A stretch of DNA of 64,000 nucleotides from contig NZ_JAGGKD010000003.1 of NCBI RefSeq assembly GCF_017873415.1, positions 186,001 to 250,000 of the forward strand, in the 5' to 3' direction. This DNA comes from Methanolobus bombayensis. Lineage in GTDB: Archaea; Halobacteriota; Methanosarcinia; Methanosarcinales; Methanosarcinaceae. The translations under genes and the position numbers were made by a program. Positions within the stretch are counted from its first letter, which is position 1. Every line of letters starts with the position of its first letter. The notes beneath the pieces were generated by a model. The model did no database searches. It was not told the origin of the DNA and saw only the letters and a program-made list of their open reading frames with translations. Shown here piece by piece: positions 13,405-44,402 of the stretch.

Positions 13405-14172
13405 CTAATCAAAATACTCTGCAAACTGCTCGCCCAGAATATCGTGCAGTGATACAACATTACCAATAATTGTAATGGCAGGTGCCTTTACACCTCTCTC
13501 TTTTGCAACCTCTTCGATATTCTCAAGAATACCCACAGTTACGCGCTGATCGGGTCTTGTACCTCTTTCAATAAGAGCTACAGGGGTTTTGGGATCCTTG
13601 CCATATTTCATGAGTTCACCGACATTCCTGCCAAGCATCTTGACACCCATGAAAATGACAATAGTACCATCGAACTTCGCAAGAGTTTCCCAGTCAAGGG
13701 CTGTTTCTTCTTTTGTGGGGTCTTCGTGGCCTGTAATGAAAGTCACCATTGATGCATGGTCCCTGTGAGTTACAGGTATACCTGCATATGCCGGAACTGC
13801 TACTGCAGAAGTGATACCTGGAACTACCTCAAATTCAATTCCTTCTGCAACAAGTTCCTGAGCCTCTTCTCCACCACGACCGAACATGTAAGGATCGCCA
13901 CCTTTGAGACGGAGTACGTTCTTTCCTTCCTTTGCTTTACGGATGATCACTTCATTGATCTCATTCTGAGTGAGTTTATGATCACCTGCGTGTTTACCTG
14001 CATCGATCTTTTCAGCGCTGTCAGGAATGAAATCTATTATCGCCTTACCTGGAAGCTGGTCATATACCACGACTTCAGTTGTATCGAGTAACCTGCGTGC
14101 TTTAATTGTTAATAATTCCGGGTCACCCGGACCTGAACCAACTAAATAGACTTTACCATATTTCTGGGCCAT
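13405..14172 (-). CDS. cobA: uroporphyrinogen-III C-methyltransferase (SUMT)
   Basis: Transfers two methyl groups from SAM to uroporphyrinogen III, giving precorrin-2, the branch point to siroheme/heme and corrinoids (also F430). The 255-residue product shows the family motifs VYLVGSGPGDPELLT near the start, VVYDQLPG and RLKGGDPYMFGRGGEE. No siroheme synthase domain is fused. It heads the hemD-ahbC run. The stop codon is TAG, one of few here; the family normally ends at this point and only 11 codons follow before TGA, so I read it as a true stop. Confidence 0.95.
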   Translation of the reverse strand: MAQKYGKVYLVGSGPGDPELLTIKARRLLDTTEVVVYDQLPGKAIIDFIPDSAEKIDAGKHAGDHKLTQNEINEVIIRKAKEGKNVLRLKGGDPYMFGRGGEEAQELVAEGIEFEVVPGITSAVAVPAYAGIPVTHRDHASMVTFITGHEDPTKEETALDWETLAKFDGTIVIFMGVKMLGRNVGELMKYGKDPKTPVALIERGTRPDQRVTVGILENIEEVAKERGVKAPAITIIGNVVSLHDILGEQFAEYFD

Positions 14173-14407: not shown

Positions 14408-14806
14408 CTATTTTTTGCTCAATATATAGAACAACATTTCTTTGTTCAATTTTCCTTCACGTTCCAGTTTACTTACTATATTTTCATCAGACATGCCTTC
14501 TGATTTAAGCTCTTTGATCTTGTCGAGCAGCGCCGGAGCGATACTGTAATATTCGTTGATATCTTTCCTGTGGCCCCAGACATCACCTTCTATGAGCTTA
14601 ATACCTTGCATTTGCATGAACATCTCGATGGACTTTGAAACAGTTCGCCTGTAAGAACTCGGGATCTGAATAACTTCCACTTTAGGACATGTTTGGACCA
14701 GTGAAAATATATCCTTGTTCGATGGTCTGAAAGCAAGATGAATTACCTTCTCACCTGGATTCAGATGTGGTATCTCCTCTCGCGAACTTACAACTCTTAT
14801 TTTCAT
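14408..14806 (-). CDS. DUF1699 family protein
   Basis: A 132-residue protein matching the DUF1699 family of Methanosarcina relatives: KIRVVSSREEIPHLNPGEKVIHLAFRPS at the start (two segments joined), a VQTCPKVEVIQIPSSYRRTVSKS middle and an IKLIEGDVWGHRKDINEYY segment. The C-terminal 35 residues look like a small helix-turn-helix (KIKELKSEGMSDENIVSKLE), so nucleic-acid binding is possible but unproven. A GGTGAGGGAGA site precedes the ATG. The stop is TAG; the open continuation downstream has no recognisable character. Function unknown. Confidence 0.75.
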   Translation of the reverse strand: MKIRVVSSREEIPHLNPGEKVIHLAFRPSNKDIFSLVQTCPKVEVIQIPSSYRRTVSKSIEMFMQMQGIKLIEGDVWGHRKDINEYYSIAPALLDKIKELKSEGMSDENIVSKLEREGKLNKEMLFYILSKK

Positions 14807-43725: not shown

Positions 43726-44220
43726 TTATTTTTTGTTATACATTACTGTTGTATAACCACCTACCTGTTTTTTGCAGATGCCTGCATGCATTTCCTCATC
43801 TTTAATCAGTTGTTCCATATCAGCAAGGAATTCCTTCACATCATTTTCATCGGGAAATACTTCATTTAATACTTCAGGATTTGTATTCTTCATATCTTTG
43901 TAGGCATTCATTGCCAGTATTTCATATTTCATTATAGTCTTGAACATTTCATGGCTTGAAACTCCAGCAAAATCAAATATATGTTTAGGAAGACCGTGAG
44001 GTGCTTCCTAAGGCACCGAAATCTCACTTTTTACAAGCCATTTTTTCATGATGTCACCATGTCTATCGGAATCATGGGATAATGTTTCAAGTGCAGCAAC
44101 ATTCTCATCCATCATTTCAATGCGTGCTTCCCAGGTGCCAAGTTGCTCCATTTCCGCTTCTATCCAATACATGCGTTGAAGCATTTTTTCAAGTGTTACT
44201 TTATCTTTTATCGCTGGCAA
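43726..44220 (-). CDS. ferritin-like four-helix protein interrupted by in-frame TAG (candidate pyrrolysine protein)
   Basis: One reading frame of 165 codons runs from ATG 44220 to TAA 43726, interrupted only by TAG at 44010-44008 (codon 71). Read through, it gives a 164-residue four-helix ferritin/rubrerythrin-like protein. Helix 1 is about 7-37 (YWIEAEMEQLG), helix 2 38-65 (LETLSHDSDRH), helix 3 89-111 (EMFKTIMKYEILAMNAY) and helix 4 126-152 (EQLIKDEEMHAG). Likely metal ligands are E21, H54, E100, E143 and H145. Codon 71 falls in the helix 2-3 connection. Neither half alone makes a bundle. Residue 71 would be pyrrolysine if this strain decodes UAG. Alternatives are a recent nonsense mutation or two co-folding peptides. 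Confidence 0.62.
43985..44011 (-). promoter_or_regulatory. inverted repeat enclosing the in-frame TAG
   Basis: On the minus strand TTAGGAAG (44011-44004) and CTTCCTAA (43992-43985) form a perfect 8-bp stem with an 11-nt loop, and the TAG codon is part of the first arm. An alternative 5-bp stem GGTGC/GCACC would put the TAG in its loop. Such structure next to UAG recalls the proposed PYLIS element of mtmB, though a terminator-type hairpin after a true stop is also possible. No T-run follows. Confidence 0.5.
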
Positions 44221-44402
44221 AATAATTCCCCATATAGATTATAGTATAAATTTATAAATATATATGGATGATTAGGAATATTGTATACAAACATTTTGAT
44301 TCAAATTTTCAACAGCAAAAAAGTGTTCAAAACTGTATACCAATTAGTTTTATAAATATAGTTAAAAATGAAAATATATATTAAAAAATGAAAAATGAGC
44401 AT

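Follow-up and report, generated by a model that had tools for sequence, protein, structure and literature searches.

Known and Candidate Natural Pyrrolysine Outside the Methylamine Methyltransferases

In archaea possessing the pyl genes, UAG serves both as a sense codon and as a stop codon (reviewed in PMC2933860 and PMC8211752). In the methylamine methyltransferases MtmB, MtbB and MttB, the UAG codon is conserved among homologues and the pyrrolysine residue is catalytic (PMC8211752). Beyond these enzymes, documented cases of natural pyrrolysine are rare, and a review of 2021 mentions no others than some transposases and the tRNA-His guanylyltransferase Thg1 (PMC8211752). Thg1 of M. acetivorans was annotated as two ORFs split by UAG and is made as one pyrrolysine protein (PMC6471195). 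As reported in PMC3639795, Heinemann et al. (2009) ascribed this pyrrolysine to neutral evolution. Concerning decoding, an amber codon introduced in M. acetivorans gave 20-30% read-through (PMC2933860), and in E. coli no need for a cis element was observed (PMC8211752).

The locus described here is a ferritin-like gene of Methanolobus bombayensis, found in a window of 64,000 nucleotides (the whole stretch of DNA analysed). As with M. acetivorans Thg1, one UAG separates two ORFs, the host belongs to the Methanosarcinaceae and has the pyl genes, the gene is outside methylamine metabolism, and neutral drift of the kind attributed to Thg1 in the above account may explain the codon. However, the two families are unrelated, and a full-length pyrrolysine protein was reported in vivo for Thg1, whereas the ferritin-like gene is known from sequence alone. 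Like MtmB, MtbB and MttB in the same genome, the gene has one UAG in frame, and the coding sequence is conserved before and after it. Unlike in these enzymes, its UAG occurs in one species and at a variable site.

One Frame Interrupted by a Single TAG

The features of the locus are the following.

44226..44231, minus strand: GGGGAA, which likely serves as ribosome-binding site for the TTG start; GGGGAAT or GAGGAAT in the nearest relatives
43726..44220, minus strand: ferritin-like gene coding for 164 residues on read-through of UAG 71; homologues of full length occur in Methanolobus and in further Methanosarcinaceae
44011..44220, minus strand: first part (residues 1-70), expected to form helices A and B (from the ORF and the structure model)
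44008..44010, minus strand: in-frame TAG, codon 71; a stop here in this genome only, among the homologues read
43985..44011, minus strand: hairpin UUAGGAAG/CUUCCUAA, 8-bp stem in which the UAG lies, probably incidental
43729..44007, minus strand: second part (residues 72-164), comprising, by prediction, the crossover plus helices C and D; dN/dS of 0.13-0.19 in comparison with the two nearest relatives
43728-43726, minus strand: terminal TAA
42035-43675, convergent with the ferritin-like gene and downstream of it: 546-aa ORF

The initial annotation had described two minus-strand ORFs in one frame, with the TAG at 44010-44008 as their sole interruption. Translation of the window confirms this arrangement, the frame 44220-43726 encoding 164 residues with the TAG as its lone internal stop. 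The stretch between the two ORFs (EAPHGLPKHIFDF...), previously described as protein-like, is indeed conserved in the alignment along with the rest of the protein. The TTG start is common to the nearest relatives, where it is preceded by a similar ribosome-binding site.

Two other Methanolobus genomes each have a single uninterrupted gene to which the read-through frame, taken as a whole, is 86-87% identical. The gene was matched in 23 of the 27 Methanolobus genomes, this one counted, with no match in the other four, and in 45 of the 112 Methanosarcinaceae genomes; outside the family, matches were weak in a sample of the phylum. Given the full-length identity to uninterrupted genes and the 45 genomes with a match, a frame that stays open across the TAG is far beyond chance. 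The homologues read extend past residue 70 and are single uninterrupted proteins, with two exceptions. The copy of one Methanolobus genome (G001, locus L023) is wrecked by several stops and frame breaks, and the homologue of a genome from another genus (G060, locus L110) is interrupted by a TAA at profile position 23. Since homologues in Methanolobus and in other Methanosarcinaceae are normally one uninterrupted protein, we consider the frame 44220-43726 as one gene, not two. The two ORFs could in principle produce separate half-proteins, the second from Met92 at 43947, and a split M. acetivorans Thg1 can be reconstituted in vitro (PMC6471195). This is the least probable of the explanations considered: Met92 has no well-spaced ribosome-binding site upstream, residues 72-91, which belong to neither ORF, are conserved, and nearly all relatives have one protein.

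Upstream of the gene and on the same strand are members of the Pfam families HK and TMP-TENI, corresponding to thiM and thiE; the convergent ORF downstream is presumably a seryl-tRNA synthetase, as judged by reading of its sequence. M. vulcani B1d (L033) and the genome G007 have the same order: thiM, thiE, ferritin-like gene, synthetase. In M. profundi (L035), the ferritin-like gene adjoins a divergent cluster comprising queC, DUF366, radical SAM and PTPS genes, and a gene with a DsbH-type thioredoxin domain is located nearby. Thus, the gene does not always have the neighbours that it has in the window.

Predicted Fold and Position of Residue 71

An AlphaFold2 model derived from nine sequences (pLDDT 85.5, pTM 0.81) shows main helices at residues 7-23, 41-64, 89-111 and 125-153. 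Dps-like proteins, bacterioferritins and ferritins make up nearly all of the top fold matches in the PDB, the best being 2clb of S. solfataricus, with probabilities up to 1.00, E-values of 0.13 or worse and a TM score of about 0.6. Like Dps-like 2clb and the bacterioferritins, the protein may be a four-helix bundle with a long B-C crossover, as the model predicts. The E-values of the fold matches are weak (0.13 at best), with no match to a Pfam or NCBIfam family and no significant sequence match in the PDB. With moderate confidence, model and fold matches support a ferritin-like protein in which, as proposed earlier, each half contributes two helices. A role in handling iron or oxygen may be suggested.

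Residues E21, H49, H54, E100, E142 and H145 are invariant in the alignment and are candidate metal ligands. Four of the ligands initially put forward (E21, H54, E100 and H145) are among them; E143 is not invariant, E142 and H49 are. Residue 71 falls within the long segment that joins predicted helices two and three. This agrees with one of the two sites first envisaged, an inter-helix loop; the other, next to the metal centre, finds no support, the residue not being one of the invariant ligand-like positions.

Pyrrolysine Machinery and Use of UAG in the Genome

PylS, PylB, PylC and PylD are encoded together on one contig (C6), all above curated cut-offs. ARAGORN identified on the same contig a tRNA-Pyl with a CTA anticodon (L042:6486-6557, minus strand), about 13 kb from pylS (L041:11751-13082, minus strand) and hence not adjoining it. 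The genome has two MtmB genes, each with one in-frame TAG, and further methyltransferase-like genes with an in-frame TAG are present in the sampled stretches. The genome thus has the pyrrolysine system expected from the family, with pylS, pylB, pylC, pylD, tRNA-Pyl(CUA) and two TAG-containing MtmB genes, and on genomic evidence this cell can read UAG. The ferritin-like gene combines two of the features looked for in a pyrrolysine-decodable UAG, namely pyl genes in the genome and a single TAG flanked by conserved coding sequence. Neither homologues complete at residue 70 nor a genome devoid of pyl genes, the testable observations that the initial annotation had set against its own reading, were encountered.

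The overall use of UAG was surveyed in 759 kb, about a quarter of this draft genome (3.12 Mb, 35 contigs). Of 609 called genes, 59 (9.7%) end with TAG, and beyond a TAG the distance to the next TAA or TGA in frame is no shorter than beyond the other stops (median 12 codons each, Mann-Whitney p = 0.89). These two results indicate that UAG is a normal stop in this genome. A code that assigns every TAG to pyrrolysine has reportedly been described in archaea recently. Such a code is unsupported here by the same figures. UAG being the stop of about 10% of the genes, read-through at codon 71 may be modest.

Besides the ferritin-like gene, a scan of the same 759 kb for TAG codons with coding signal on both sides returned genes resembling methylamine methyltransferases, an adjacent gene pair and an antisense artefact; the ferritin-like gene is the only non-methyltransferase gene found to be split by TAG in this sample. 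The related scan for TAA and TGA returned eight cases each outside antisense ones; in nearly all of them a start codon lies within a few codons, as for adjacent genes.

Several TAG codons deserve mention. In the gene pair returned by the scan (L062:7515-7802, minus strand), a TAG stands between an ORF and an in-frame PurE-like start a few codons on, probably marking an adjacent gene pair. In two relatives, a gene of 255 aa (L044:7988-8755, minus strand; L051:1848-2615, plus strand) ends with TAG and is followed by 269 in-frame codons resembling uroporphyrinogen-III synthase, so that read-through of UAG would fuse both; the same 255-aa gene in the window (13405-14172, minus strand) ends with TAG and meets a TGA 11 codons on. 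The same two relatives have a gene of 405-406 aa (L045:9265-10485, plus strand; L050:8290-9507, minus strand) that ends with TAG, followed by an in-frame extension of 614 codons containing a protein similar, by reading of its sequence, to glucosamine-fructose-6-phosphate aminotransferase. Finally, a 132-aa ORF ends with TAG both in this genome (window 14408-14806, minus strand) and in G007 (L051:1213-1611, plus strand). A similar in-frame stretch, GKGAVSNGTALHLYLL, follows the TAG in both genomes; the ORF may be a non-coding or antisense feature.

Codon 71 Among the Relatives

Conservation of the TAG was one of the checks suggested by the initial annotation. Across 46 homologous loci, which include a few genomes fetched twice, residue 71 is E (16), D (7), K (5), Q (4), M (4), R (4), V (3), T (2) or G (1), and none of these loci has a stop at this position. 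Within Methanolobus the residue is E, D, Q, T, V or K; it is more varied across Methanosarcinaceae. The position is variable next to prolines 70 and 74, both invariant in the alignment. As PylS is present in all 27 Methanolobus genomes, relatives able to use pyrrolysine at position 71 do not do so. The lack of conservation of TAG and the variety of residues argue that position 71 is no selected pyrrolysine site, and a site of the methyltransferase type was rejected on the 46 loci. By its sporadic occurrence, at a variable position of an otherwise intact gene, the codon has the characters of a neutral, Thg1-type UAG.

The UAG is enclosed in a hairpin with a folding z-score of -2.66, and only one of 200 shuffled sequences was as stable. 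This hairpin is not shared with the relatives, and a PYLIS-like signal at the UAG was rejected for that reason. Together with the presence of the pyl system, the hairpin is what can be said for a functional or regulatory pyrrolysine, acting in the protein itself or tying production of the full-length protein to pyl activity. Against this, position 71 is unconserved, no other homologue has TAG, the hairpin is absent from relatives and the residue is in a predicted loop. Since neither codon nor hairpin is shared, we regard this explanation as very improbable. We give equally little credit to its most specific form, a UAG kept as a switch by which full-length protein would be made mainly when pyl is active, in connection with growth on methylamines.

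An error of sequencing or assembly, with a sense codon such as GAG or CAG as the true codon 71, could be suspected from the draft state of the genome (35 contigs) and from the occurrence of TAG in this genome only. Yet TAG differs by two bases from the GAA of the nearest relative, and the remaining frame is clean. Such an error is therefore improbable, though less so than a functional pyrrolysine.

Selection on Either Side of Codon 71

Pairwise dN/dS against the two nearest relatives is 0.10-0.11 upstream of the TAG and 0.13-0.19 downstream. In three-taxon counts, this genome alone shows 7 nonsynonymous and 9 synonymous changes upstream, and 6 and 7 downstream; from these small counts, nonsynonymous changes are not in excess downstream (6/13 versus 7/16, Fisher p = 1.0). 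For the downstream part, the counts disfavour a branch that is wholly neutral (binomial 0.007-0.06 for 6 nonsynonymous changes of 13). Every column that does not vary among 19 relatives is retained here, 27 of them upstream and 22 downstream, and no second lesion was found in the 93 codons past the TAG. With one stop, low dN/dS after it and invariant columns retained, the gene does not have the signature of a pseudogene. The sequence comparison thus indicates codons under purifying selection and without visible decay after the TAG, bearing in mind that the counts are small and that a recent change would leave no trace.

This last point matters for the main and serious rival explanation, a recent loss of function. 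Here the TAG would be an ordinary nonsense mutation at which most ribosomes stop, any pyrrolysine read-through being incidental, and the gene would be turning into a pseudogene. The gene is dispensable, as seen from the four Methanolobus genomes without a match and the wrecked copy in G001; together with the TAA-containing copy in G060, the latter indicates that the family is being lost in places. On the other side are the 93 codons without a second lesion, the 22 invariant columns kept downstream, the low dN/dS and the disfavoured neutral branch, all of which still fit a change that is recent. We consider loss of function unlikely on balance, while giving it clearly more weight than an assembly error.

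A Probable Near-Neutral UAG Buffered by Partial Decoding

The best explanation, which we hold to be probable, is a recent and near-neutral change from sense codon to TAG, buffered by partial pyrrolysine decoding. A sense codon at the permissive position 71, in the B-C crossover, would have become TAG. Charged tRNA-Pyl and the release factor would then compete for the UAG, which would be read both as pyrrolysine and as stop, part of the product being full-length protein that carries pyrrolysine at residue 71 and part a fragment of 70 residues. The full-length protein would keep its function because the side chain at residue 71, a lysine in five of the loci, appears to matter little. Pyrrolysine would have no special role here, its presence reflecting tolerated near-neutral drift made possible by the ability of the cell to decode UAG. 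A recent nonsense mutation would look the same, considering the small branch counts and the dispensability of the gene in the genus.

Split genes of this type matter for gene callers, to which they may appear as two fragments or as a pseudogene. On sequence grounds, the ferritin-like gene is a genuine candidate for pyrrolysine occurring naturally beyond the methyltransferases, and it belongs to a sporadic and near-neutral type of which examples were known before. One species with UAG, set against relatives with a full-length gene and a sense codon, offers a natural test of whether pyl-containing archaea tolerate drift from sense codons to UAG, and codon 71 also tests how effectively UAG is decoded in genes other than those of the methyltransferases.
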